48,408 bases of DNA from Marilutibacter aestuarii (GTDB lineage Bacteria; Pseudomonadota; Gammaproteobacteria; Xanthomonadales; Xanthomonadaceae), in the NCBI RefSeq assembly GCF_006546775.1, contig NZ_VICE01000154.1, positions 1-48,408 of the forward strand, read 5' to 3'. Below are positions 1-28,811 of this stretch, piece by piece (position 1 is the stretch's first letter; every line of letters begins with the position of its first letter). Below the pieces are notes generated by a model that was not told where the DNA came from, did not search any database, and saw only the letters and a list, made by a program, of their open reading frames with translations. The translations under genes and the position numbers were made by a program.

Positions 1-537
1 AGGGCGTCGCCCGCGGCAAGGTTCATGGGTCCTCCCAGCGTCCTGCGACTGCTGGCGGAGTGGGGCGTGGAGGAAGGGCGCCTGTTCCCGGCCCGGGAAG
101 CCTGGGAGCCGCTTGCGCCCGGGCTGTCGGTCCATGCGGTCCCGGCCGCGCATCCCGAGATCCGTCGCGACCCGGAAGGCCGGCTGGACTGCGTCGGCTT
201 CGTCCTGCAGCGAGCCGGCCGGCGTGCCTATCTTGCGGGGGACACGAGTGTCAAGCAGGCGCTCATCGATGCCCTGGCGAAACTTGCCCCGATCGACGTC
301 GCGGTGTTGCCGGTGAACGAGCCCAATTTCTTCCGGGCCCGGCGCGGCATCATCGGCAACATGTCGGTGCGCGAAGCCTTCGCAATGGCGGACGAGCTTG
401 GGATTGGGACGGTGGTTCCAGTACACTGGGACATGTTTGCCGCGAATGCCGTGGGCCTTGACGAAATCCGGGCGGTTTATGCCCAGATGCAGCCGGCCTT
501 CAGCCTGTCCATCCAGCCAGCCCACTTCCCCGTTTGA
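1..537 (+). CDS. UlaG-like metallo-beta-lactamase-fold hydrolase, 5' truncated
   Basis: C-terminal part of an MBL-fold metal-dependent hydrolase. The frame is open to base 1 (the first codons read RASPAARF before the Met at 25), so the true start lies outside the window and the Met at 25 is internal. Visible motifs are YLAGDTS (the late metal-binding Asp), DVAVLPVNEP and VVPVHWDMF (the C-terminal metal-binding His), in the order found in UlaG-type L-ascorbate-6-phosphate lactonases and related lactonases or phosphodiesterases. The HxHxDH motif is off-window. It ends 10 bases before the next gene, which suggests co-transcription with the glycosyltransferase and sugar-activation genes that follow. 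A lactonase or phosphoester hydrolase role in making an unusual sugar acid is inference; the substrate cannot be read from the sequence. Confidence 0.8.
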   Translation, partial: RASPAARFMGPPSVLRLLAEWGVEEGRLFPAREAWEPLAPGLSVHAVPAAHPEIRRDPEGRLDCVGFVLQRAGRRAYLAGDTSVKQALIDALAKLAPIDVAVLPVNEPNFFRARRGIIGNMSVREAFAMADELGIGTVVPVHWDMFAANAVGLDEIRAVYAQMQPAFSLSIQPAHFPV

Positions 538-547
538 ACTCCATTTC

Positions 548-1429
548 ATGCTGATCAGCGTCGTTATCCGGACGCTCAACGAGGCGCGCTACCTCGGGGA
601 GTTGCTCGAATCCATCCACGGACAGGATCTTGGGCGATTCCGGGTCGAAGTGGTCGTCATCGACTCGGGATCCACCGACGGGACCCTCGAGATCGCGCAG
701 AGGCATGGTTGCGTCATCACCCACATCACGCGCGAGCAGTTTTCGTTCGGGCGCTCGCTGAACATGGGGTGCGAAGTCGCCTCGGGCGACATCCTCGTGC
801 TCGTCAGCGGGCATTGCGTCCCACGCGACGAACACTGGCTCCGCCTGCTCTGCGACCCCATCGCCAACGGTCTCGTCGACTATACCTATGGCCGGCAGTT
901 CGGGGGAGCGGAAAGCCACTTCAGTGAGTGTCGCATCTTCGGGAAGTATTTTCCGGAGGCATCGGCGGTGCCGCAGGAAGGCTTCTTCTGCAACAACGCG
1001 AACTCGGCCATTTCGAGGGCTGCCTGGGCAACGTACCGTTTCGACGAGGACGTCACGGGCCTGGAGGACATGGAGCTCGCACAGCGCCTGTGCCGTTCTG
1101 GCGGCAAGGTCGGCTACGTCGCCGAGGCAGGGGTGTACCACTACCATGCCGAGAGCTGGCCCCAGGTCCGGCGCCGTTTCGAACGGGAAGCCCTGGCGCT
1201 GCAGAAGATCATGCCCCAGATACACGTACGCCGACGCGATACCGTTCGATACATCTGCAGCAGCATCTGGCAGGACTGGAAGGCCGCCTGGGGCGAAGGC
1301 GCCTGGCTTCGCCATGCCTTGGGCATCATGCGATACCGCTTCTGCCAATACACGGGCTCTTTCATGGGCAACCACGAGCACCGCAAGTTGTCGCATGCGG
1401 AAAAAGACAAGTATTTCTATCCGAGCTGA
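548..1429 (+). CDS. Family 2 glycosyltransferase
   Basis: Predicted 293-residue cytoplasmic GT-A glycosyltransferase, probably adding one sugar to a lipid-linked O-antigen intermediate. Residues 1-12 (MLISVVIRTLNE) and VVVIDSGSTDG around 36-45 are the nucleotide-binding start of GT2 enzymes. NSAISRAAW and GLEDMEL (E173, D174) match the acceptor and catalytic-base region. At the position of the usual DxD metal motif it has VLVSGHCVP (SGH at 87-89), as in some rhamnosyltransferase-like GT2 enzymes where Asp is replaced. The start at 548 was chosen because the GT2 fold begins there and the gene then sits 10 bases after its neighbour; the longer open frame overlaps that gene and is not GT-like. 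The cytidylyltransferase begins 7 bases downstream, so a CMP-linked donor is possible (inference). Confidence 0.9.
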   Translation: MLISVVIRTLNEARYLGELLESIHGQDLGRFRVEVVVIDSGSTDGTLEIAQRHGCVITHITREQFSFGRSLNMGCEVASGDILVLVSGHCVPRDEHWLRLLCDPIANGLVDYTYGRQFGGAESHFSECRIFGKYFPEASAVPQEGFFCNNANSAISRAAWATYRFDEDVTGLEDMELAQRLCRSGGKVGYVAEAGVYHYHAESWPQVRRRFEREALALQKIMPQIHVRRRDTVRYICSSIWQDWKAAWGEGAWLRHALGIMRYRFCQYTGSFMGNHEHRKLSHAEKDKYFYPS

Positions 1430-1436
1430 TCGATCC

Positions 1437-2141
1437 ATGGACAAAAACAAGAAGAAGGTAGTCGCCCTGTTGCCGATGAAGGCGAACAGCGAGCGCGTCA
1501 AGGGCAAGAACTTTCGCGAATTCTGCGGCAAGCCGCTGTTCCGCTGGATCCTGGATACCTTGCTGGAAGTCGAAGAGATCGACGAGGTGGTGATCAATAC
1601 CGATGCGCGCCACATCCTCGCGGAGAACGGTCTCGTCGAAACCGAGCGGGTGAAGATCCGCGACCGCAAGGCCGAGATCTGCGGCGACATGGTGTCGATG
1701 AACCTGGTCCTGGCCGACGACGTCGCCAATGTCGACGCCGACGTCTACCTCATGACGCATACGACCAATCCGCTGGTCAGCGCCGACACCGTCCGGCGGG
1801 CCCTGGCGGCGTACGATGCCGCGTTGGCGTCGGGGAGCGCCGACTCCCTGTTCACGGTCGACAAGGTGCAGACCCGCTTCTATCGGGCTGACTGCAGCCC
1901 CGTGAACCACGATCCCGACAACCTGGTCCGCACCCAGGACCTGGAGCCCTGGTACGAGGAGAACTCGAACATCTACCTGTTCACCCGGCCGAGCTTCGAG
2001 TCCACCCAGGCAAGGATCGGGCGCAAGCCCATGATGTTCGAGGGCCCGCAGTTCGAGTCCATTGACATCGATACCCCGGACGATTGGGACTTCGCCGTCG
2101 TCGCGGCGCGTTTCATGCAGCAGCAGGGGCTGGCCGGATGA
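1437..2141 (+). CDS. CMP-sugar-type cytidylyltransferase (NeuA/KdsB family)
   Basis: Predicted 234-residue cytidylyltransferase that would activate a sugar acid or related acid with CTP to a CMP-linked donor. The N-terminus VVALLPMKANSERVKGKN (8-25) is the signature loop of the acylneuraminate/Kdo cytidylyltransferase family, with Lys where many members have Arg. Other family features are VVINTDA, LMTHTTNPLVSADTV (substrate and metal region) and the C-terminal DIDTPDDWDFA. The length fits single-domain members. It overlaps the next gene by 4 bases (ATGA), indicating translational coupling. No sialic-acid or legionaminic-acid synthase is present nearby, so the substrate is unlikely to be made by the classical NeuB route inside this window. 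The family is clear; the substrate is unknown. Confidence 0.88.
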   Translation: MDKNKKKVVALLPMKANSERVKGKNFREFCGKPLFRWILDTLLEVEEIDEVVINTDARHILAENGLVETERVKIRDRKAEICGDMVSMNLVLADDVANVDADVYLMTHTTNPLVSADTVRRALAAYDAALASGSADSLFTVDKVQTRFYRADCSPVNHDPDNLVRTQDLEPWYEENSNIYLFTRPSFESTQARIGRKPMMFEGPQFESIDIDTPDDWDFAVVAARFMQQQGLAG

Positions 2142-3073
2142 AGAAGATCCTCGTGACCTGCCCACCCATGCTGGGGATGATCGAAGAGTTCGTTCCGGTA
2201 GCGGCCGAACGCGGCTACGAACTCGTGCCGGCGAAGGTCACCCAAGTGATGACCGAAGAAGAGCTGATGGCGCAATTGCCCGGGTACGAAGGTTGGATCA
2301 TCGGCGACGATCCAGCCACGCGGCGCGTCTTCGAAGCAGGCCGGGCGGGCGAGCTCAAGGCGGCGGTGAAGTGGGGCATCGGCGTGGACAACGTCGATTT
2401 CGCCGCGTGCAAGGATCTTGGGATTCCCATCATCAACACACCCAACATGTTCGGGGGCGAAGTGGCGGACGTCGCGCTCGGCTACGTCATCGGCCTCGCG
2501 CGCGACCTGTTCCTGATCGATCGCGGCATTCGCCTCGACCACGGGTGGCCCAAGCCGCCGGGCATGAGCCTGGCCGGCAAGCGGGTGGCCCTGGTCGGCT
2601 TCGGGGACATCGGACGCAGTACCGCGAAACGGCTCGCGGCCTTTGATATGCCCATCGTTGCGTATGACCCGGGCAACGACGACGACGGCGGCATTGGCGG
2701 CGTGGAGCGCGCGACCTGGCCGCAGCGCATTGAAGAGGCCGACTTCATCGTCTTCACGTGCTCGCTGAACCCACGCAACCGCCACATGTTGAATGCCGAG
2801 GTGCTGGCCAGTGCGAAGCCGGGCGTCCAAGTGGTCAATGTGGCCCGTGGACCCTTGATCGACGAGCAGGCCCTGATCGACGCGCTCCAGTCTGGGCACG
2901 TGGCCGCAGCCGCGCTGGATGTCTTCGAGGTGGAACCCCTGCCCGCGGATTCGCCGCTACGGGCGATGCCGCGTTGCATCTTCGGCTCACACAACGGCTC
3001 CAACACGAAAGACGCCGTGCGACGGGCGAGCCAAGAGGCGATGGACAAGCTGTTCGGCTTCCTGGATAGCTGA
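2138..3073 (+). CDS. D-isomer-specific 2-hydroxyacid dehydrogenase
   Basis: Predicted 311-residue NAD(P)-dependent D-2-hydroxyacid dehydrogenase of the phosphoglycerate/lactate dehydrogenase family. It would interconvert a 2-keto acid and a D-2-hydroxy acid. The Rossmann motif is VALVGFGDIG (150-159). Catalytic residues are R237 in NVARGPL, E266 in DVFEVEPL and H285 in GSHNGSN; the last departs from the usual PHxAG context but keeps the His. The substrate-binding segment WGIGVDNVD is typical. It starts in the ATGA overlap with the cytidylyltransferase, and the next gene begins one base after its stop. This tight packing suggests that its product feeds the CMP-activation step or modifies the same precursor (inference). 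It is unlikely to be SerA because there is no ACT domain and the context is polysaccharide synthesis. Confidence 0.88.
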   Translation: MKKILVTCPPMLGMIEEFVPVAAERGYELVPAKVTQVMTEEELMAQLPGYEGWIIGDDPATRRVFEAGRAGELKAAVKWGIGVDNVDFAACKDLGIPIINTPNMFGGEVADVALGYVIGLARDLFLIDRGIRLDHGWPKPPGMSLAGKRVALVGFGDIGRSTAKRLAAFDMPIVAYDPGNDDDGGIGGVERATWPQRIEEADFIVFTCSLNPRNRHMLNAEVLASAKPGVQVVNVARGPLIDEQALIDALQSGHVAAAALDVFEVEPLPADSPLRAMPRCIFGSHNGSNTKDAVRRASQEAMDKLFGFLDS

Positions 3074-3074
3074 C

Positions 3075-3815
3075 GTGGGCTGCGTCGTGGTCACGGGTGC
3101 AGCCGGTGGAATTGGCCAAGCGCTGGTGCGAGGCTTCGTTCAGGCCGGTAGCGACGTGATCGCAGTGGATCGGGTCGAGAGGCCAGCCGACCTTGCGACC
3201 GACCAGTACATCTCGTGCGATCTGGCGCGCACGGTTCGTGATCCCGCCCACGCAGGCGAGATTTTCGCGAAAGTGCGCGCCGCGTTGGGTGCTCGCCCCC
3301 TCGATGCGCTCATCAACAACGCAGCGATCCAGATCCTCGGGAGCATCGAGAGCCTGGATCGCGACGCCTGGCGGGACAGCCTGGAAGTCAATTTGCTGGC
3401 TCCCTTCATCTGGACACAGGCGCTTTTGCCGGAGCTGGAAGCCAGTAGGGGCAGCGTACTCAACATCAGTAGCATCCATGCCCGGCTGACCAAACCTGGC
3501 TTCGTGGCATACGCCACCAGCAAGGCGGCGCTCAGCGGCATGACGCGCGCCATGGCGGTCGAACTGGGTTCTCGCGTGCGAGTGAATGCGATCGAGCCAG
3601 CAGCCATCGATACGCCGATGTTGCGGGCCGGGTTCTCCGGAAACGCGGAAGGGTTCTCAGCACTTGAATCGCATCATCCCGTGGGCCAGGTCGGGTCTGC
3701 CGAAGGGTTGGCGTCCCTAGCCGTTGCCATAGTCAGGGAGGGATCGGGTTTCCTATCCGGTTCGCTCGTTGGGTTGGATGGTGCGATCGCCGCTAGGCTG
3801 CACGATCCGGTATAG
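3075..3815 (+). CDS. Short-chain dehydrogenase/reductase
   Basis: Predicted 246-residue classical SDR oxidoreductase. Visible are the cofactor motif VTGAAGGIG (6-14), NNAA (81-84), catalytic Ser in NISSIHA (around 132-133) and YATSK (Y146, K150). The Pro-Xaa-Ile-like segment IEPAAIDTPM follows as expected. The start is taken as GTG at 3075, one base after the upstream stop, because the Rossmann strand begins immediately (MGCVVVTG) and no closer ATG exists. The ribosome site is weak, so coupling to the upstream gene is likely. It closes the five-gene module; a 134-base gap follows. It could oxidise or reduce a sugar or keto-acid precursor for the cytidylyltransferase (inference); FabG-like lipid roles are less likely in this context. 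Confidence 0.88.
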   Translation: MGCVVVTGAAGGIGQALVRGFVQAGSDVIAVDRVERPADLATDQYISCDLARTVRDPAHAGEIFAKVRAALGARPLDALINNAAIQILGSIESLDRDAWRDSLEVNLLAPFIWTQALLPELEASRGSVLNISSIHARLTKPGFVAYATSKAALSGMTRAMAVELGSRVRVNAIEPAAIDTPMLRAGFSGNAEGFSALESHHPVGQVGSAEGLASLAVAIVREGSGFLSGSLVGLDGAIAARLHDPV

Positions 3816-3949: not shown

Positions 3950-5167
3950 ATGGACAGGATCTACTTCCACTCGACCGCACAGACGCTACATCGGCAGGTC
4001 GATCCAGCCCCCTACACCAATGGCCTGCCATGCCCGGCAGTAAACACCATCGAGGACCTGAAGCCCTCGTTTTCCCTGACAGGGAACAAGGGGAACATGG
4101 TTCATGCGGAGGCAGTGCTCAAACTGCTCAACGTAAACCGCTCCAGGTCCTGTGTCGGCAACTTGTCTCACCTGCATAAGGCGCTTGGCAAGGGCTTCGG
4201 AGAGTACATGCGGAGTCACTTTGACTTCGTTGTTTTGAGCATGGCCAATTTCATCAGGAAGGGGATGAACCACACGGGTCTCGTGGCCGTGCTGAAAGAG
4301 GTCGATGTTCCTCTGGTGGTGTTTGGCGCGGGAATGCAGACTCCGGTGCAGGATCCTGGGGTGCTGCATCCGTCCACGAGGGAGCTGCTCGATCTTCTGA
4401 ACAAGAAGTGCACGCTTCTGGGCGTACGTGGCGAGAAGACGTCCGAGTTCATGAAGTCACTTGGACTGCATAATCACAAGATTCTCGGATGCCCTTCTTT
4501 GTACGTCTATCCGAAGAACATACTCTCCATAAAGGCGGCGGGTTATTCGCCCGGTTGTCGCTGGGCTACGGCGGGTCACGTTTCCTACAATAATCTCGAT
4601 GGCTCCAGGCCTGGCTTCAAACGCGCGAGTACTTTCCTGGATTGCATGGAGGGCGTGCGTCCGGATTACGTATTTCAAGACGAAGTGTTCTCGTATGCTG
4701 ATATAGAGTCGCGACCCGACGTATATGACGATGCAACGGGACGGCTCAGTGCCGAAGTGATCAACGACTTCTTCAAGCAGCGGCTGGGGCTGAAACTACC
4801 TTTCACTGACTACTACTGGTTCAATGAGGTGAGCCAATGGCGGCAGTACATGATGAGAGTCGATTTCTACCTCGGCGATCGCTTCCATGGCGGGGTCGCG
4901 GGCCTGCAAGCGGGGGTGCCGGCCATCTTCATTGCCGGTGATCAGCGTATCGACGAACTTACGGATTTCTTCGGAATGCCGAAGACTACTTTCTCCGAGC
5001 TCAAGCAGTCGGGCGTGGAGGCGATTGTGGAGGAACAGTGCTCGCTTGAGGCGCTGACCGTATTCAAGACACGCTACCGCAAGCGATTGGAGCCGTTTGT
5101 CAAAGCCGTTGAGTCAGCGGGGTTGAGCTTGGTGAACAGGAATCAGCTGCTCGCAGCAGCGGTATAG
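3950..5167 (+). CDS. Polysaccharide pyruvyl transferase family protein
   Basis: Predicted 405-residue member of the polysaccharide pyruvyl transferase family (PF04230), which typically adds pyruvate ketals from PEP to sugars in exopolysaccharides or secondary cell-wall polymers. Family features are the early SLTGNKGNMVHAEAVLKLL segment, DFVVLSMANFIRKG, VVFGAGMQ, the LLGVRGEKTSEFMKSLG block and the conserved C-terminal GDRFHGGVAGLQAGVPAIF. ATG at 3950 is chosen over GTG at 3938 because of the ribosome site. Local GC is clearly lower (roughly 52-55% in places, for example 4681-4740) than in the housekeeping genes (near 70%), suggesting recent transfer. Some family members are GT-B-like glycosyl or phosphoglycosyl transferases, so pyruvylation is likely but not certain. 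Confidence 0.8.
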   Translation: MDRIYFHSTAQTLHRQVDPAPYTNGLPCPAVNTIEDLKPSFSLTGNKGNMVHAEAVLKLLNVNRSRSCVGNLSHLHKALGKGFGEYMRSHFDFVVLSMANFIRKGMNHTGLVAVLKEVDVPLVVFGAGMQTPVQDPGVLHPSTRELLDLLNKKCTLLGVRGEKTSEFMKSLGLHNHKILGCPSLYVYPKNILSIKAAGYSPGCRWATAGHVSYNNLDGSRPGFKRASTFLDCMEGVRPDYVFQDEVFSYADIESRPDVYDDATGRLSAEVINDFFKQRLGLKLPFTDYYWFNEVSQWRQYMMRVDFYLGDRFHGGVAGLQAGVPAIFIAGDQRIDELTDFFGMPKTTFSELKQSGVEAIVEEQCSLEALTVFKTRYRKRLEPFVKAVESAGLSLVNRNQLLAAAV

Positions 5168-5252
5168 GATGCGCTCTCCGCTATCACGGAGGCCATGCGT
5201 GGATCAAGCGCGCCCACCTGTATCGGCTCTAGAAGAATGAGATTTTTTTGAA

Positions 5253-7706
5253 ATGGCAATGGGAATTGCAGATGTGAACAAGCTCGAGCGAAGCGGCGAT
5301 ATCGTCGCTGCGCTCGAGCTCGTGACTGAACTCATCAGGCGTGTCGAGAACACAGACCCTGACCTGGCCCGGATCTACCGTCGGACAGAAGCGCGACTGC
5401 TGCTGCTCCTTGAAGGAAGCCATCGCTGGCACGGGCAAGGCGTGGCAATCGTCGAAGGGTCGGGGCTGTTCCAGACGGGCGCAGAGTCGTTGTCGCCCAC
5501 GCGTGCGGCGCCCCTCGTGTCATTGGTGGTGCCATGCTTCAACGCCGAGAAGTTCCTTCAGGCTACGCTGGAGAGCATCCGGTCCCAGACCTATGGCAGG
5601 TTCGAATGCATTCTGGTTGATGACTTTTCCAAGGACTCATCCGCCTCGATGGCCAAGGCCATGGCGCAGTCTGACAAGCGCTTCCGGTTTTACCAGCACC
5701 GCGCCAACGGGGGGCTGGCTGCTTCGAGGAATTCCGGCCTCAGGCTTGCAAGGGGGGAGTTGGTTGCCTTCCTGGATTCCGACGATCTCTTGGCACCCGA
5801 ATCCATTGCGAACCGCGTGGCGGCATTGGCGCCGTTGATGGGCCATGGTGCGGTGGCCGGTTCCTACGACTTCTCCGAAACAATCGCGGAGGACCACAGC
5901 GGCCCGATCAAGGCTGTACGCTTGTCCGGAAAGCCGCATTTCGTGGACTTCGTCTCGACGAGAGGTGACTGCCCCTTCAATGCCAATCAGCCATTGATCA
6001 AGCGTAATGTGCTGGTAGAGATGGGAGGGTTCCCCGAAGAATACCCGCAAGCTGAGGACTGGCGCCTGTGGTCAAAGGTGCTGAGGGCGGGATATGTATT
6101 TGTATCTGCACCTACGATCGGGAGTGGCTATCGCCAGACATCTGGCAGCATGATTCGGCGGGCCCCCCTTCTCCACGTCGAACGCTCGCGAGGGAATTTC
6201 TTCCGGGCGCATGCGCCACAGGGTGGGGACACCGACCCCGTCGAGGTTGCGTACGAAGATGGATTCTACGCGGCTGCGATTTTCGACAAGGAATGGGGGT
6301 ATTACTTTGCGCAGCACCACTTCACCACGCGCGTGTTCAACTTCATTGGCATCGAATTGGCGAGGCTGGACGAGTTGCAAGTCAAGCCCGACTACGAGGG
6401 TTTGCGAGATATAGTATTGATGCACATCCCGGATTTCTATTCCTGCGTCTCAGGCTACTCGGGGAAGAATCTCCTGGGCTGGCTGGAGAATGGATTCAAG
6501 CGATATTACGGGGTCACGGTGCTGGATGAGGGCCTCGCACAGCGCTTTTCCAGAGCGGCTCGATGTCTCATCGGCTGCGTCTTCGACGGCGTTGACGTGA
6601 AGGCCATAGGGGGAAGGATTCTTGCGACCAGGCGACTCGAACGGTTGCCCGACGAGGTTGTGGATCTGGTCTTCGTACCCCACAAGAAGTACCACACCCG
6701 AAGCTTCGAGCTTCTGATCCCAAAGTTGCGCGCGGCTGGGCTGACATTCAGGTTCGTCGATATTTCGGTTCCTTATCGGGATGAAGAGGCCTTCGATCCG
6801 AGTTTGGCCGAGCATTTCATGTCATACAACGAGTTCGTCTTTTCGCGGGTGCTGCCCAAGGTGATCGTATGCATGAACGACTGGGACACGGTCGTCAAAC
6901 CGCTTGTCAAGCACGCGAACAGTTGCGGGATACCCACCGTAGGCATCGTGGAGGGAGTTCAGGATTTTCTGGACAGCGACACGGGTAGAAAGCGGAGCCC
7001 ATACCGCGAGGTCGCGAATGTCTTTCTGCCGGGTAACTTCGACCGCAAGTATTTCCCGGAAACTGGACAGACCTTGTGGGTTACGGGGGTGCAAAGGCTC
7101 GATGGGCTCGGGTCCCACAAGGAGTCCAGGGCTCGCGCCAACCGCGGCCCGGTTGTCAAGGTGGTCGTGAATGTCAACTTCTCCTACGGCGTCATGACTG
7201 ATCGTCGCGCGGATTGGTTGAGTGATATTCAGTCGGCCTGCAACGAGTGCGGCTTCGAGATGATCGTGTCGCAACACCCTCAGGATCAGGGCGACCTGTC
7301 GAGCTACAACGTGAGCGACAGGGGCCTGTATGACCTGCTCGTGGATTGCGACGTGCTCATAAGTCGGTTCAGTGGCGCCATCTTGGAATCGCTGGTCATC
7401 GGTTGCCCGGTCGTTTACTACAACGGCCATGGGGAGCTGGTAGACAAGTTCTTTGATCCCCTTGGCGGTTTCCATGCCGCAAACGACAAGCGTTCGCTGG
7501 TTTCCGCGCTCAGGGCCGCTGTTGCCGATGATCCTGCGCCTGGGACCTTCCTGGAGCAGCACTGCGACATCACGCCCGACGAAACCAGGACCTCGGTCGA
7601 CAAGAGCGTGGACGCCCTGCAGGCGATCGTGGCCCGGTCGACGTTCAACGTGGAGGAGGGAATTCGGTTCAAGGGCTTGCTCGGCGCACGGTTGCTTACG
7701 GGTTGA
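5253..7706 (+). CDS. Two-domain GT2 plus GT-B-like transferase
   Basis: Predicted 817-residue protein with at least two catalytic-looking parts. Residues about 84-330 are a GT2 domain: PLVSLVVPCFNAEKFLQ, ILVDDFSKDSS, NGGLAASRNSGL, FLDSDD (around 174-179, the metal motif) and YPQAEDWRLW (catalytic-base region). Residues about 440-800 resemble a GT-B or CDP-glycerol glycerophosphotransferase-like domain: VDLVFVPHKKYHT (around 469) and FSGAILESLVIGCPVVYY (around 705), the nucleotide-binding end of that fold. Residues 1-80 match nothing I know. The start at 5253 is uncertain; Met3 is an alternative and the ribosome site is poor. GC is low, like the preceding gene. It may add two different groups to one repeat unit (inference). 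Confidence 0.78.
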   Translation: MAMGIADVNKLERSGDIVAALELVTELIRRVENTDPDLARIYRRTEARLLLLLEGSHRWHGQGVAIVEGSGLFQTGAESLSPTRAAPLVSLVVPCFNAEKFLQATLESIRSQTYGRFECILVDDFSKDSSASMAKAMAQSDKRFRFYQHRANGGLAASRNSGLRLARGELVAFLDSDDLLAPESIANRVAALAPLMGHGAVAGSYDFSETIAEDHSGPIKAVRLSGKPHFVDFVSTRGDCPFNANQPLIKRNVLVEMGGFPEEYPQAEDWRLWSKVLRAGYVFVSAPTIGSGYRQTSGSMIRRAPLLHVERSRGNFFRAHAPQGGDTDPVEVAYEDGFYAAAIFDKEWGYYFAQHHFTTRVFNFIGIELARLDELQVKPDYEGLRDIVLMHIPDFYSCVSGYSGKNLLGWLENGFKRYYGVTVLDEGLAQRFSRAARCLIGCVFDGVDVKAIGGRILATRRLERLPDEVVDLVFVPHKKYHTRSFELLIPKLRAAGLTFRFVDISVPYRDEEAFDPSLAEHFMSYNEFVFSRVLPKVIVCMNDWDTVVKPLVKHANSCGIPTVGIVEGVQDFLDSDTGRKRSPYREVANVFLPGNFDRKYFPETGQTLWVTGVQRLDGLGSHKESRARANRGPVVKVVVNVNFSYGVMTDRRADWLSDIQSACNECGFEMIVSQHPQDQGDLSSYNVSDRGLYDLLVDCDVLISRFSGAILESLVIGCPVVYYNGHGELVDKFFDPLGGFHAANDKRSLVSALRAAVADDPAPGTFLEQHCDITPDETRTSVDKSVDALQAIVARSTFNVEEGIRFKGLLGARLLTG

Positions 7707-7954
7707 GGGTTGGCCATCGGGGGTTCGATACTCCTAGGTCATGCGCTGCGTGCTCACGACCCCGCCAGGCCTGATCTTGGAGGGACTCGTACAAGAGCTG
7801 GTAGTGGGCGTATTGGAGCTTGCGCGCTCTCTTCTGCGTCACACTGCCGTTCGTTCGGACTTGGTGAGGATCGTAGCGGGATCTACCATCTGGCCGGGTT
7901 CGCTCGCTTCCATATTCTGAACAGTCCCACCAATTCGATCACTTTGTTCCTTGA
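7707..7954. other. 248-base gap without a supported gene
   Basis: The largest gap inside the island. A short open frame (about 7710-7973) runs through it, but its peptide is low in hydrophobic periodicity, lacks motifs and would overlap the gmd start, so it is not called. The segment probably holds a promoter for gmd-fcl, yet no clear promoter pair or hairpin could be identified. Confidence 0.45.
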
Positions 7955-9133
7955 ATGCCGGTGCCTCCAATGACCTCTACTGCTCCCGTCTCTGCCGCCA
8001 GCAATGGAAGGTGCGCACTCATCACGGGCGTGACGGGGCAAGACGGCTCCTATCTCGCCGAGCTTCTGCTTGCCAAGGGCTACGTCGTCCACGGCTTGAA
8101 GCGAAGGTCGTCCTCGCTGAATACCCAGCGGGTCGATGGCATCTATCAGGATCCGCATGAGCCAGATCGCCGATTCCACCTGCATTATGGCGATCTGACT
8201 GATGGTTCGAACCTTGTGCGGGTGATCGAAGACGTTCAGCCGGACGAGATCTATAACCTCGCCGCGCAAAGCCACGTCGCGGTGAGCTTCGACTTGCCCG
8301 AGTACACGGCGAATGTGAATGCGCTCGGTGCCTTGAGGCTTCTTGAAGCGGTGCGTCTGCTGGGAATGGAGAAGCGGGTTCGCTTCTACCAGGCCGGGAC
8401 GTCCGAGTTGTACGGGCTTGTAAGTGAGAGTCCACAGCGCGAGTCCACGCCATTCCATCCGCGAAGCCCCTATGGCGTGTCCAAGCTGTTCGCCCATTGG
8501 ATCACGATCAATTATCGCGAGGCGTACGGTATGTATGCCTGCAATGGCATCCTCTTCAACCACGAGAGCCCGCGGCGTGGCGAGACGTTCGTCACTCGCA
8601 AGATCACCCGCGGACTGGCGAGGATCGCACTCGGCATCGAACGCACCCTCCATCTGGGGAACTTCGATGCGCTCCGCGATTGGGGGCATGCGGGGGATTA
8701 CGTCGAAGCGCAATGGCTGATGCTCCAGCAGGACGCTCCCCGGGACTATGTCATCGCGAGCGGCGTCCAGTGTTCCGTGAGGGATTTCGTGCGCGCGTCC
8801 GCCAGGGAGATCGGTGTCGAGCTGGAGTTCCGTGGCGCGGGGGTGGAGGAAGAGGGCGTCGTGCGGTCGGTAACGGGCGACATGGCGCCCGCCATCAAGC
8901 CTGGCGACGTCATCGTCCGTGTTGATCCTAGGTACTTCAGGCCCGCGGAAGTCGATACGCTCCTGGGTGATGCGCGCAGGGCCATGAGCGAACTGGGGTG
9001 GAGTCCCCGCAGGACCGTTGGCGAGGTTTGCGCGGAAATGATGGCGGCAGACCTGGTCCAGGCGAAGCGCATCGCCCTGCTCGAGGCCCACGGGTTCGGG
9101 TTCAAGGACGCGCCACCCGGTGAAGGCTCGTGA
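7955..9133 (+). CDS. gmd: GDP-mannose 4,6-dehydratase
   Basis: Converts GDP-D-mannose to GDP-4-keto-6-deoxy-D-mannose in the cytosol, the first committed step to GDP-L-fucose and related 6-deoxyhexoses. The 392-residue protein is an extended SDR with cofactor motif [14 protein letters not shown] (23-36), then [18 protein letters not shown], the catalytic TSELYG (about 149-154), and YGVSK (Y173, K177). [16 protein letters not shown] and [17 protein letters not shown] are highly characteristic of Gmd. It is slightly longer than most family members (about 345-375) because of an N-terminal extension of some 15 residues; ATG at 7970 (Met6) is an alternative start. It overlaps fcl by 4 bases (GTGA). 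Its substrate is made by ManC, encoded at 23473. Confidence 0.97.
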
Positions 9134-10134
9134 GCGCGCCGGGCGCGACTCGTAGGGTCTACGTCGCCGGGCACACGGGCATGGTGGGCAGCGCCATCGT
9201 GCGCGCGCTGCGGCACGACGACGATGTCGAACTGGTCGTCCGGAGTCGCTCCGAGCTCGACCTGGCGCGACAGGAGGAGGTCGAGGCGTTCTTTCGTGAC
9301 GAACGCATCGACGAAGTCCACGTCGCGGCCGCCCGGGTTGGAGGGATCTCCGCGAACGACCGCCTGCCCGCGGACTTCATTCGCGAGAATCTTGCGATCG
9401 CGTGCAATCTGGTGGGGGCCGCGCACGACGCCGGGATCGACAGGCTGCTGTTCCTTGGCTCGTCGTGCGTCTACCCCAGGCTCGCGCCACAACCCATCCC
9501 GGAAGAGGCGCTGCTCACGGGGCCTCTCGAGCCGACGAACGAGCCGTATGCAATCGCGAAGATCGCGGGCCTCAAGCTTTGCGAGGCCTTTCGTCGCCAG
9601 CACGGCCGGCGCTATCGGAGCCTGATGCCCACCAATCTCTATGGGCCCGGCGACAACTTCAGCCTGGAAGACGGGCATGTGCTGCCCGCCCTGCTGAGAC
9701 GGTTCCACGAGGCGGCGGCGTCGGGAGCCGAAGAGGTCGTGGTCTGGGGTACGGGGTCGCCCCTCAGGGAGTTCATGCACGTCGACGACCTCGCCGCGGC
9801 ATGCCGCACGGTGATGGCGCTCCCGGATGAGCGTTGGGACACCGTCATGACGGGGATCAACCACCTGAACGTCGGGACCGGCGAAGACTGTTCGATCCGC
9901 CATCTGGTGGACGAGATCGTGGCACTGACTGGCTATGCGGGGCGTATCCGGTACGATAGCGCCAAGCCAGACGGTACGCCCAGGAAGCTCCTGGATGTGT
10001 CGCGGATCCGCGCACTGGGTTGGGCTCCCGGCATCCCCCTTCGTGAGGGGTTGCGGACGACGTATGCGTGGTACCGGGACCGGGAGGGCGACGCGTCCAG
10101 GCCCCTCAGGGGCGTGCTGGGTGATCGTGGATGA
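9130..10134 (+). CDS. fcl: GDP-L-fucose synthase
   Basis: Bifunctional 3,5-epimerase/4-reductase that turns the Gmd product into GDP-L-fucose using NADPH. The 334-residue sequence shows [13 protein letters not shown] (cofactor loop, 14-20), the family-specific [35 protein letters not shown] (Y140, K144) and [11 protein letters not shown], all typical of Fcl/WcaG. It starts with GTG inside the GTGA overlap with gmd, so the two are co-translated. GDP-L-fucose (or possibly GDP-colitose or perosamine if other enzymes act on the Gmd product) would feed the nearby glycosyltransferases; no aminotransferase or GDP-6-deoxy-hexose 3-dehydratase is seen here, which favours fucose. Confidence 0.97.
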
Positions 10135-10207
10135 CGCGTGGGCGCCGCATGCCAAGCACCACGCTCAAGCGTCATGACGCAAGCATATTGGGAAGATTGA
10201 AGTACAC

Positions 10208-11509
10208 ATGAAGATCCTATTTTCCGGTCTCGACAGCACCTGGTGGAATCGCGCTGAAGGTGAGGCCTCCGCGCGACCGCCGAATGCCGACTGGGTGGAT
10301 GCCGAGAAGCTGCTCGCCGAGGTGGCCAGCGGGACTGCCCGCGTGGAAGGCACGAAGCTGGCATGGGTCCATACTTGTCCCGTGGCCTATGCGCTCGCCG
10401 CCGGTCCCGACGATCCAAGGTTGCTGGAATCCAGGCTCGAAGCCTGGCTCGTACACAACCGGGCCGCGCTCAACATGCGACGGGAGCTGGGCCAGGATCT
10501 GGTGTTCGTTGAGGGCGATGCGCTGGCGCCTGTTGAAGTGGCCGCCGCACTGCGACTGGGCAAGCACGAACACCCCCGTGCCGATGGGGACGGGGACCCG
10601 CTGGCAAAGACCAGGCACGCCCTGTTCCAGCTCTTGGCCCGGCACGACCATCGTTACCTCGAAGTGCAGAGCGCCTTGCGGGCAGTCTCCTGGTTCCAGC
10701 AGGCCGGGGCCACCGCCACCGTTCCCGTCGCGGATGAACTGACAGGGGAACAACTGATCGAGCTGTTCCAGCACGTCGAGCGCGCCGGACGCGAGCAAGG
10801 CCTGCGCCAGGAACTGGATGCCGAGGCGAAGGCGCACGGGGAGTTGCGGGTCAGGAAGGACGTCGAGAAGTCCGAACACCTGGAACGTACCGAACAGCGG
10901 GCCGAACTGCTCGTGATCCAACTGCACCAGCTGCAGGAAGAGCTGGAGCAATACTATTTCCGCCTTCGCGATGTCGAAGCAGAGAATACAGCGAGCGCGG
11001 AGGCCTCCCGTGCCGCCAACATGCAGGTCGACGCACTGAGGCTCCAGTTGCATGAGATGCAGGCTGAATTGGACCTGCAGGTGGCCCGCAGGCCTGATCC
11101 CTCGGTCTTTTCCACGAGGGCGTTGTTTTCCGTCCTCATGCGGAGGGTCTACACCCGACTCCTGCCCCTTCGGGTCAGGACGTCGCGCGAGGCGCGTCGT
11201 CATCGGCGCGAACTCGAGTCCACGCTCGGCCTGATCCGAAGCAGTCGGTGGTTCGATGCGGACTGGTACCTGGATACCTACCGGGATGTCAGGGACGCGG
11301 GAAGCGATCCGGCCGAACACTATCACCTGCATGGCTGGCGGGAGGGCCGCAATCCTGGCCCGGACTTCGATTCGACTCACTACCTGGCCGCCAACATCGA
11401 CGTCCGCAAGTCGGCCGCCGACCCCCTCGTGCACTTCATCCAGCATGGCGCAGCGGAAGGCAGGAGCCCCAGGGAAGGCATCCCCGGATCGGTAGCAAAG
11501 CCGGCCTGA
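10208..11509 (+). CDS. Coiled-coil protein with C-terminal tandem repeats, unknown function
   Basis: Predicted 433-residue protein of unknown function. Residues 1-130 are a small globular region starting MKILFSGLDSTWWN. Residues about 180-300 are strongly helical and charged, with heptad-like spacing around LHQLQEELEQYYFRLRDVE, a coiled-coil segment seen in other polysaccharide-cluster proteins. The last 75 residues carry two copies of a motif often found in surface-polysaccharide glycosyltransferases: FDADWYLDTYRDV...HYHLHGWREGRNP, then FDSTHYLAANIDV...HFIQHGAAEGRSP. No signal peptide or membrane span is visible. It sits between fcl and the large GT2 gene, so a scaffold, chain-length or transferase-partner role is plausible, but this is inference. 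No catalytic motif was recognised. Confidence 0.7.
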   Translation: MKILFSGLDSTWWNRAEGEASARPPNADWVDAEKLLAEVASGTARVEGTKLAWVHTCPVAYALAAGPDDPRLLESRLEAWLVHNRAALNMRRELGQDLVFVEGDALAPVEVAAALRLGKHEHPRADGDGDPLAKTRHALFQLLARHDHRYLEVQSALRAVSWFQQAGATATVPVADELTGEQLIELFQHVERAGREQGLRQELDAEAKAHGELRVRKDVEKSEHLERTEQRAELLVIQLHQLQEELEQYYFRLRDVEAENTASAEASRAANMQVDALRLQLHEMQAELDLQVARRPDPSVFSTRALFSVLMRRVYTRLLPLRVRTSREARRHRRELESTLGLIRSSRWFDADWYLDTYRDVRDAGSDPAEHYHLHGWREGRNPGPDFDSTHYLAANIDVRKSAADPLVHFIQHGAAEGRSPREGIPGSVAKPA

Positions 11510-26486: not shown

Positions 26487-28811
26487 ATGAAAAATCTTTC
26501 GTGGCTGTGGGTGCCGGCGATCCTGTGCGCGTGCACGCAGACGCAGGATTCGGCGGTGGAAGTCGAGAGGGGCGCGAAGCTGCCGACGGCGATGGCTCCG
26601 TCCGGGATGGTCGTCGCGGGTGCGTCCGGGGCCCCGCGGCATTCCGCGTTTGCGTCGGCTCCGGACAGGGGTTCGCTGGTGGACTATGTCCGGGATGCCG
26701 GCACACGCCATTCGGGCGCTTATACCTGGCGCCCGGTCGAAGTGAGCGAGGAGCATGCGCTCCGTGCGATCCAAAGCGGGCACATGTCGTTCATGTCGCC
26801 CGACGGCACGCCGATACGCCTCGCGTACGACCGTCACATCGAGCACCCGGATGGCAACTGGACCTGGATCGGCACCGCCGGGGACGGCCAGAGCGCCGTG
26901 ATCACCTTCGGTGACGCCGCGGCGTTCGGCACGATTCCCCAGGGGAACGGCGAACTGCCCCTGCGACTGACCTCCAGCGATTCCCGCGGCTGGGTCGTGT
27001 CGACCGATCGTGCCCGCCTGGCGGATATCGACAACGAGGCGACGGACCCCACGCGGCCGGATTTCCTCGTGCCTCCGAAACTCGCGGCTGCGCGCACGGC
27101 GGGCATGCAGGCCGCGGGCGCGCGGGCGCAGGCAGCCACCTCCGGTGGCAAGACGGTGATCGACGTGCTCGTCGGTTATACCAATGGCTTCAGGGTGGCG
27201 CGCGGCAGCCAATCCGCCGCACAGACGCGTATCCGCAACCTGGTGGATACCACCAACCAGGCCTATGTGACCAGCCAGATCAATGCCGAGATACGCCTGG
27301 TGCATTCGATGGAAGTGAACTTCCCGGACAACACCAGCAACAACGATGCCCTCTCGAAGTTGACCGGCTTCCAGGCCCCTTCCACGCCGAAGGACCCCGA
27401 TCCGGCATTCTCCGCACTGCGCGCCGCGCGCGAGCAGTACGGTGCCGACCTGGTCTCGCTGGTCCGCAGGTTCAATTCACCCGAGAACGACGGTTGCGGT
27501 GTTGCGTGGCTGCTGGGCGGGGGAGAGTCTGGAATCACGCCCAGTGACGAATACTTCGGCTACTCGGTGGTGAGCGACGGAACCGACGCTGGCGATGATG
27601 GCAAGAGCTACTACTGCCGCGACGAGACGTTCGCCCATGAGTTGGGCCATAACCTGGGTTCCACGCACGATGCGGAAACCGCCGACAACGATCCGGGTGC
27701 CTACAGCTTTTCGTTCGGTTACAAGATCACGTCGGCGTCGGCCAGTTTCCACACGATCATGGCCTACGGTGACGAGGGCCAGATGTCTTACCCGGTGTTT
27801 TCCAACCCGGCGATCACCGCCTGCGGCGGTCGCGCCTGCGGCACCAGCATGGCCGACAACGCCAGGAGCATCAATCTGACCTCGCCGATCATCGGCGCGT
27901 TCAGGGCGAGCGTCGTGGCACCGCCGCCTGGCATGGCCACTCGCATCGTGTCCGACTTCAATGGAGATGGCGTGTCCGACGTCCTCTGGAGGAATACCGC
28001 CAGCGGCGCGAATACCATCTGGCCATCAGCCGGCACCGACGGTGAGATCCCGGTCACGCGGGTCGCCAACCTCGTCTGGATGATCCCCGGCATCGGCGAC
28101 TTCAACGGTGACGGCGAGGCAGACCTGTTCTGGCGGAACAGCAAGGACGGTCGCAACACGATCTGGCGCTCTGCAAGCACGACCGACGAGCAGTTCATGC
28201 CCCGGGTGGCCAATCTCGACTGGCAAGTCGTGGGCATCGGTGACCTGGATGGCGATGGAACCGACGACGTGCTCTGGCGCAATCTGCGGGACGGCCGCAA
28301 CACGTACTGGCCGGGCGCGAATACCGAGCGGGAGCAGAATCTCACTCGTGTCGCGAACCTGGCCTGGAGTATCGTCGGCCTGGGTGATTTCGACGGCGAC
28401 GGCCAGGACGACATCCTGTGGCGGAACGCGCGCGATGGCCGCAACACGATCTGGCGCTCGGGCGATTCCAACGCGGAGACCGCTGTTTCCGCGCGATCGG
28501 CTTCGTGGATCGTGGCAGGCGTCGGCGACTTCGACGGCGACGGTAAGGCCGATATCCTGTGGCGTGACCCCGCCAACGGGAGCAATGCCGTGTGGCCCGG
28601 CGCCCAGGCGAGCGGGGCCATCGCGCGAAACGGAAACGCAGGGACCCAGTGGCAGGTCGCGGGCGCGGGCGACTACGACGGGGACCGCCGTGCAGACGTG
28701 TTGTGGCGCCATGCAGGCACCGGCTTGAACACGATATGGCTTTCGGCCGATCCGTCGAACCAGAGGGATGTGACCACCGTCCGCAATACCACCTGGGTCA
28801 TCCAGAAGTAG
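26487..28811 (+). CDS. Secreted metzincin metalloprotease with six FG-GAP-like repeats
   Basis: Predicted 774-residue exported zinc protease. The N-terminus MKNLSWLWVPAILCACT looks like a lipoprotein-type signal (LCAC near residue 16), though cleavage is uncertain. Residues about 25-210 resemble a propeptide. The catalytic domain has FAHELGHNLGSTHD (H384, E385, H388, H394), the extended HExxHxxGxxH zinc motif, followed by HTIMAYGDEGQMSYP, a metzincin Met-turn. After a short linker, residues 488-774 consist of six tandem repeats of about 48 residues with the core GDFDGDGxxDxLWRN...NTIW, calcium-binding FG-GAP/VCBS-like blades. The protein ends at the last repeat. A strong hairpin terminator follows. 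Role in nutrition or predation is inference. Confidence 0.92.
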   Translation: MKNLSWLWVPAILCACTQTQDSAVEVERGAKLPTAMAPSGMVVAGASGAPRHSAFASAPDRGSLVDYVRDAGTRHSGAYTWRPVEVSEEHALRAIQSGHMSFMSPDGTPIRLAYDRHIEHPDGNWTWIGTAGDGQSAVITFGDAAAFGTIPQGNGELPLRLTSSDSRGWVVSTDRARLADIDNEATDPTRPDFLVPPKLAAARTAGMQAAGARAQAATSGGKTVIDVLVGYTNGFRVARGSQSAAQTRIRNLVDTTNQAYVTSQINAEIRLVHSMEVNFPDNTSNNDALSKLTGFQAPSTPKDPDPAFSALRAAREQYGADLVSLVRRFNSPENDGCGVAWLLGGGESGITPSDEYFGYSVVSDGTDAGDDGKSYYCRDETFAHELGHNLGSTHDAETADNDPGAYSFSFGYKITSASASFHTIMAYGDEGQMSYPVFSNPAITACGGRACGTSMADNARSINLTSPIIGAFRASVVAPPPGMATRIVSDFNGDGVSDVLWRNTASGANTIWPSAGTDGEIPVTRVANLVWMIPGIGDFNGDGEADLFWRNSKDGRNTIWRSASTTDEQFMPRVANLDWQVVGIGDLDGDGTDDVLWRNLRDGRNTYWPGANTEREQNLTRVANLAWSIVGLGDFDGDGQDDILWRNARDGRNTIWRSGDSNAETAVSARSASWIVAGVGDFDGDGKADILWRDPANGSNAVWPGAQASGAIARNGNAGTQWQVAGAGDYDGDRRADVLWRHAGTGLNTIWLSADPSNQRDVTTVRNTTWVIQK
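27948..28808 (+). repeat. Six tandem 144-base repeats encoding FG-GAP-like blades
   Basis: Six in-frame repeats of 48 codons each (one of 47) beginning at Val488 of the protease, each with a DxDGDG-type loop and LWRN. DNA copies have diverged while the protein core is kept, which indicates an old duplication under selection. Confidence 0.9.

Follow-up and report, generated by a model that had tools for sequence, protein, structure and literature searches.

A recurring polysaccharide-cluster module with exchangeable lactonase families and its proposed oxidative route to a CMP-activated 2-ulosonic acid

Introduction

How might a bacterium make an acid activated with cytidine monophosphate (CMP) when no condensing enzyme is encoded beside the activating one? 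This question is raised by a compact gene module of Marilutibacter aestuarii, in which a cytidylyltransferase (CTase) of the NeuA/KdsB/PseF family is packed together with a glycosyltransferase, two dehydrogenases, and a UlaG-like metallo-hydrolase. The module opens a stretch of 48,408 nt (hereafter, the window), which is the entire contig C118 (NZ_VICE01000154.1) of assembly GCF_006546775.1 (3,491,084 bases in 156 contigs, 99.98% complete). To our knowledge, the characterised CMP-ulosonic acids (sialic acid, legionaminic acid, pseudaminic acid, Kdn, and 3-deoxy-D-manno-octulosonic acid, or Kdo) are all built from a sugar by condensation with phosphoenolpyruvate or pyruvate. Here we argue that oxidation, not condensation, is probably how the module produces a CMP-activated 2-ulosonic acid, through catalytic steps that we infer.

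All five genes lie on the forward strand. The UlaG-like enzyme, a proposed sugar-acid lactonase, is represented in the window by its C-terminal 178 residues (positions 1–537; Pfam Lactamase_B_2, with a weak match to L-ascorbate-6-phosphate lactonase). It is followed by a family 2 glycosyltransferase (GT2; 548–1429; Pfam Glycos_transf_2), the CTase (1437–2141; Pfam CTP_transf_3), which we propose to be a CMP-ulosonate synthetase, a D-2-hydroxyacid dehydrogenase (2HADH; 2138–3073; Pfam 2-Hacid_dh/2-Hacid_dh_C) as the proposed aldonate 2-dehydrogenase, and a short-chain dehydrogenase/reductase (SDR; 3075–3815, GTG start; Pfam adh_short) as the proposed aldose 1-dehydrogenase. An earlier reading of the bare sequence (the original prediction) had described this five-gene set with gaps of 10 and 7 bases, a 4-base overlap, and a 1-base gap; the spacings were exact on re-measurement, and Pfam returned the same families.

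Results

Conservation of the module in other genomes

We searched for the CTase–2HADH–SDR neighbourhood in other genomes and found the genes co-conserved, with module genes co-occurring far above chance. Forty loci were pooled: the window, 29 loci from a CTase scan, four from plasmids (L047–L050), two from a class-level search (L051, L052), and four from phylum- and order-level searches (L080–L083). Counted with neighbourhood profiles that were built mostly from these same loci, a 2HADH accompanied the CTase in 37 of 40 loci, the exceptions being L026 and two loci whose contigs stop beside the CTase (L016, L029). A GT2 was present in 35 loci and an SDR (>100 bits) in 31. A sixth gene encoding an MptE-like protein was a further, less constant member (>150 bits in 17 of 40 loci, crediting the window with the gene on the neighbouring contig C129 described below). 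Of the seven rows that seeded the MptE-like profile, three (L006, L009, L017) carried X at stops because of a wrong frame; the matches themselves were re-read in frame before alignment. A fairer check came from nine loci (L047–L049, L051, L052, and L080–L083) that had seeded none of the UlaG, SMP-30, MptE, GT2, CTase, 2HADH, or SDR profiles; the HpcH profile was seeded by L050 and the KdsA profile by L047. All nine had both 2HADH and GT2, four had UlaG, three had an SMP-30-family protein, two had neither, and none had both. Loci of PseF-like CTases (six of eight weak matches checked) gave no match to UlaG, SMP-30, 2HADH, SDR, or the MptE-like protein and only one weak match to GT2.

Some loci depart from the standard layout. 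A radical-SAM/SPASM protein lies between CTase and 2HADH in L021 (10648–11715). The loci of a Lachnospiraceae bin (L030:7809–12388) and of bacterium D16-50 (L032:9162–12391) are diverged, keeping UlaG, CTase, 2HADH, and SDR without GT2; in L030, a 518-residue frame without a Pfam match separates UlaG from CTase.

Exchange of lactonase families and an aldolase variant

The clearest clue to the chemistry came from the hydrolase. UlaG was found in 22 of the 40 loci and a protein of the SMP-30/gluconolactonase family in nine different ones, and no locus had both (absence in these locus counts refers to the stretch examined, at most about 21 kb). The SMP-30 calls rested on Pfam SGL (L007, L019, L024), on annotation (L047, L049), or on the profile (L011, L015, L027, L083). 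Four of these genes (L019, L024, L027, L083) occupy UlaG's own slot directly before GT2, and two (L007, L015) directly follow the SDR. The L047 gene lies next to an SDR that best matches the D-xylose 1-dehydrogenase model, without reaching its cut-off. Zero overlap of 22 and nine among the 37 aldolase-free loci has a naive probability of 4 × 10^-5, a figure that assumes independence, which these loci do not have. A CTase tree with 36 rows shows at least five switches of the UlaG/SMP-30 state, with many branches unsupported (16 of 33 inner branches, bootstrap unsettled); this tree leaves out L080–L083 and scores L011 as lacking a lactonase.

Hydrolysis of sugar lactones is a reaction common to the UlaG and SMP-30 families. 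Because two unrelated folds swap within one module, the simplest explanation is that they share this one reaction. The opening of a lactone by the hydrolase, which the original prediction had offered as a possibility, is thus strongly supported by the replacement of UlaG with SMP-30-family proteins.

Three further loci without a lactonase (L026, L031, L050) carry an HpcH/HpaI-like aldolase gene directly before the CTase. These genes match the models for HpaI, 2-dehydro-3-deoxyglucarate aldolase, and 2-keto-3-deoxy-rhamnonate aldolase, but under the cut-offs. Aldolases of the HpcH/HpaI type produce 2-keto acids, and their position beside the CTase therefore supports a 2-keto acid as its substrate. 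The L050 locus (5043–10653), on an Acuticoccus plasmid, combines a racemase, the aldolase, a CTase of 44% identity, a dehydrogenase, a HAD hydrolase, and a further oxidoreductase, and is perhaps a related route to a CMP-linked acid.

Properties of the individual enzymes

An A-L-x-P-M-K-x-x-S-x-R stretch is invariant in an alignment of 28 CTases; its Lys takes the place of the Arg found in the NeuA and KdsB motif. The predicted structure of the CTase (mean pLDDT, the predicted local distance difference test, of 89.3) was closest in a fold search to CMP-Kdn synthetase and then to CMP-Neu5Ac synthetases. Its best curated sequence model was PseF, with a score of 76.9 against a cut-off of 205.7.

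For UlaG we used the complete relative in L005, the Luteimonas lumbrici locus, since the copy in the window is interrupted by the contig break. The predicted structure of this relative (93.8) was nearest to 3bv6 and 2wyl/2wym, which we take to be UlaG structures, and all seven expected metal-ligand positions are invariant in 19 relatives. Its score against the L-ascorbate-6-phosphate lactonase (UlaG) equivalog was 61.5 bits, not reaching the cut-off of 306. In eight of 19 loci, UlaG and GT2 are fused into a single open reading frame.

The 2HADH residues Arg237, Glu266, His285, and Asp177 are invariant in 14 relatives. By a general rule for such enzymes, the invariant Asp177 suggests the use of nicotinamide adenine dinucleotide (NAD), which would fit oxidation. 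Ser133, Tyr146, and Lys150 of the SDR are invariant in 12 relatives, and the PDB sequence that it matches best, 2dtd, is described there as a glucose 1-dehydrogenase-related protein.

A proposed oxidative pathway

These families can be placed in a plausible order. The SDR would oxidise a free aldose to its lactone, which the UlaG-like enzyme (elsewhere the SMP-30-family lactonase) would open to the aldonate. Oxidation at C2 of the aldonate by 2HADH would then give a 2-keto acid able to close to a 2-ulosonic acid, which the CTase would couple to CMP. The residue may finally be added, by the MptE-like protein or by GT2, to a surface polysaccharide that an ABC transporter would export. Since the cluster proteins scanned include no sugar-acid dehydratase, the hydroxyl at C3 would be retained, in contrast to Kdo and the sialic acids. 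D-2-hydroxyacid dehydrogenases prefer 2R acids, which suggests gluconate, galactonate, xylonate, or L-arabinonate; that the starting sugar is one with such a 2R aldonate is our guess.

Which protein transfers the residue? The original prediction had suggested GT2; the MptE-like protein, a frequent extra member, is the closer match to known users of CMP-ulosonates. Fifteen of 16 members match the Kdo transferase WaaZ and four of 16 match PseD, far below the cut-offs where shown (29.4 bits against a WaaZ equivalog cut-off of 200), and the PF01973 domain is reached at 39.7 bits against a threshold of 34.6. In Maf flagellin glycosyltransferases, PF01973 forms the central domain; it is reported to resemble the sialyltransferase Cst-II, and Maf enzymes accept CMP-Neu5Ac and CMP-Kdo (PMC11339370). 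As a candidate transferase, the WaaZ/Maf-like protein at least equals GT2, although GT2 is the more constant of the two (35 versus 17 of 40).

Several observations weigh against this pathway. The SDR is absent from nine of 40 loci, and those of L047 and L049 are weak matches (112 and 116 bits). Lactonase and aldolase are both absent from six loci (L014 and L016, on short contigs, and L025, L028, L048, and L081). The SMP-30 genes of L011, L047, and L049 are separated from the CTase core by 4 to 10 kb, and two of the three aldolase loci (L031 and L050) keep a 2HADH where the keto acid should already exist. As for transfer, the WaaZ matches are weak, the MptE-like protein is strong in fewer than half of the loci and its profile had no match among PDB sequences, and we know of no GT2 enzymes that use CMP donors. 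Moreover, metagenome-assembled genomes supply 23 of the 29 CTase-scan loci.

Alternative explanations

Alternatively, the CTase might activate Kdo or a related ulosonic acid produced by enzymes outside the module, with the dehydrogenases and the hydrolase remodelling it before or after activation. The CTase fold is that of CMP-Kdn, CMP-Neu5Ac, and CMP-Kdo synthetases, and KdsA occurs in the own genome and in four of seven other genomes or records searched. We nevertheless consider this unlikely. KdsA is encoded on contig C42 and a separate, true KdsB (above cut-off) on C12, so Kdo has its own enzymes; the window's CTase is not the genome's KdsB match. No KdsA was found in the genomes of the Lachnospiraceae-type loci L030 and L032, which have UlaG, CTase, 2HADH, and SDR, and the swap of one lactonase family for another would be left unexplained. 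With no KdsA in the cluster either, a plain Kdo pathway was set aside. Less probable still is activation of a hydroxy acid or its phosphate (for example, a glycerate or aldonate phosphate formed via a SerA-like 2HADH), giving a donor of the cytidine diphosphate type and a phosphodiester-linked acid. Here the closeness of 2HADH to phosphoglycerate dehydrogenases and the action of the related fold families IspD and TarI on phosphates have to be set against a CTase nearest in sequence and fold to CMP-ulosonate synthetases, the lack of a kinase among the cluster proteins scanned, and the lactonases and aldolase variant, which point to keto acids.

Could a standard NeuB-dependent nonulosonic acid or phosphonate pathway be completed by genes elsewhere in the genome? 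PseF is the best curated CTase model, and a NeuB-family gene lies elsewhere in 10 of 19 module genomes, a further point against an oxidative origin. We hold this to be very improbable: NeuB (PF03102) is absent from the whole own genome and from eight of the 18 other module genomes searched, and the PseF score falls well under its cut-off. The NeuB-dependent reading was set aside on these grounds and because the scanned cluster proteins contain no NeuB; the phosphonate reading was set aside from the cluster proteins alone, which contain no phosphoenolpyruvate (PEP) mutase domain, the whole genome not having been searched for this enzyme. Each of these rivals accounts for less than the oxidative route does, and all of them leave the exchange of lactonase families unexplained.

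Left continuation and surrounding polysaccharide cluster

The UlaG gene is open at the left edge of the window, and the contig end falls inside it, as the original prediction had recognised in calling the module cut on the left. The missing N-terminal part lies at the extreme end of contig C129 (L068:18835–19097) and continues into window positions 1–537. Residues 6–84 of the complete L005 homologue match the end of C129 (76% identity), residues 86–257 match the window start (67% identity), and the final 7 bases of C129 equal the initial 7 of the window. This split match and the 7-base overlap make it very probable that the two contigs are adjacent, with the assembly break inside the UlaG gene, and therefore that the polysaccharide cluster begins about 12.6 kb left of the window.

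Reading toward the window, C129 carries cysteine-metabolism genes (a CBS-domain PALP protein and Cys_Met_Meta_PP), an ABC-2 permease, and an ABC ATPase; then a methyltransferase-domain protein, two large glycosyltransferases, and a protein without a Pfam match; and last a sulfotransferase-like protein (under the Pfam cut-off), the MptE-like protein immediately before UlaG, and the UlaG start. Extending leftward thus revealed no known pathway among the C129 proteins scanned. NeuB, KdsA, PEP mutase, aldolase, and sugar-acid dehydratase domains were all absent from the cluster proteins scanned, bearing out the earlier remark that the module lacks a NeuB-type or Kdo-8-phosphate synthase.

To the right of the module lie a polysaccharide pyruvyl transferase, glycosyltransferases, Gmd, and a GDP-fucose-synthase-like gene. 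The pyruvyl transferase (3956–5164) directly follows the module and has no relative among the 29 CTase-scan loci (E 1e-5). It is followed by an 817-residue protein (5253–7706) whose N-terminal domain is GT2 and whose long C-terminal half matches no Pfam family. Gmd and the GDP-fucose-synthase-like gene (7955–10134) belong to the same cluster, and Gmd-type genes recur near the module in seven of 29 loci, so the polysaccharides may have fucose or a related sugar in common. Outside the cluster, a frame at 26487–28811 resembles, as judged by eye, a secreted zinc metalloprotease (HELGHNLGSTHD) with C-terminal repeats.

Distribution and mobility

A CTase scan of 84,980 species genomes returned 102 pattern matches, from which 29 loci were obtained (47%–90% CTase identity; six isolates and 23 metagenome bins). 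Their hosts include Luteimonas, Azonexus, Nitrococcus, Ideonella, Desulfobulbus, Cyanobium, and Chlorobiaceae, as well as Nitrospirae, Opitutaceae, Planctomycetes, Acidobacteria, and Lachnospiraceae. Locus L013 belongs to Nitrococcus mobilis Nb-231, and L019, which has the SMP-30 variant, to Aliidiomarina. Closer to home the CTase was sparse, matching three of 198 genomes of the family (the own genome, one at 90%, and one weakly at 34%) and none of the six other genomes listed for the genus. At E ≤ 1e-50, four of 398 genomes matched at the order level and three of 398 at the phylum level, the own genome included in each count. CTase relatives were found in four of 72,556 plasmid records (E 1e-20), all four from Alphaproteobacteria, and in none of 50,697 phage records (E 1e-10). 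This sporadic spread across distant bacteria and plasmids points to probable horizontal transfer. The module is real and apparently mobile.

Discussion

The original prediction of a route to a CMP-activated acidic residue stands in part: no known pathway is seen upstream and the genes are co-conserved, but an aldolase replaces the lactonase in three loci, and we infer the chemistry. The NeuB pathways (to CMP-Neu5Ac, -Leg, -Pse, and -Kdn) use the same CTase family and fold and deliver their product to a surface glycan; the module differs in having two dehydrogenases and a lactonase, and no NeuB in the cluster or genome. The Kdo pathway (KdsA, KdsB) likewise has a CMP-ulosonate synthetase, and its transferase WaaZ resembles the MptE-like protein, but Kdo is a 3-deoxy product of condensation whose KdsA and KdsB lie on other contigs. 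Compared with WaaZ and Maf (PF01973), the MptE-like proteins are weak matches and short, stand-alone proteins of polysaccharide clusters.

Oxidative aldose pathways such as XylB/XylC pair an aldose 1-dehydrogenase with an SMP-30 lactonase, and a comparable pair of SDR and proposed lactonase is adjacent in L007, L015, and L047. In contrast to those pathways, the module lies in polysaccharide clusters beside a CTase, and its next enzyme is a 2HADH, with no sugar-acid dehydratase seen. Its hydrolase shares the fold and metal site of the UlaG lactonase, but scores far under the UlaG cut-off and is often fused to GT2. Hex-2-ulosonic acids have precedent in bacterial capsules: the K3 antigen of Escherichia coli contains 4-deoxy-2-hexulosonic acid, according to a title cited in PMC10433991. 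The K3 acid, however, is 4-deoxy, and the L019 CTase gene had no blastn match among 20,395 E. coli records. We found no description of this gene set in open-licence PMC papers (titles and abstract starts).

In its fullest form, our proposal is a condensation-free route by which an ordinary aldose becomes a pent- or hex-2-ulosonic acid that is CMP-activated and non-deoxy (3-hydroxy). The cassette encoding it would cross phyla, exchange one lactonase for another, exist in a variant fed by an aldolase, and include a transferase of the WaaZ/Maf-like kind. We consider this full reading, under which the product would be a new class of CMP-sugar donor, as likely as not. The module is small and recurs at 47%–90% CTase identity in bacteria that are far apart. 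If true, an oxidative route would add to the known activated sugars and supply glycosyltransferase families with a new donor; it could also account for the rare ulosonic acids of surface glycans.

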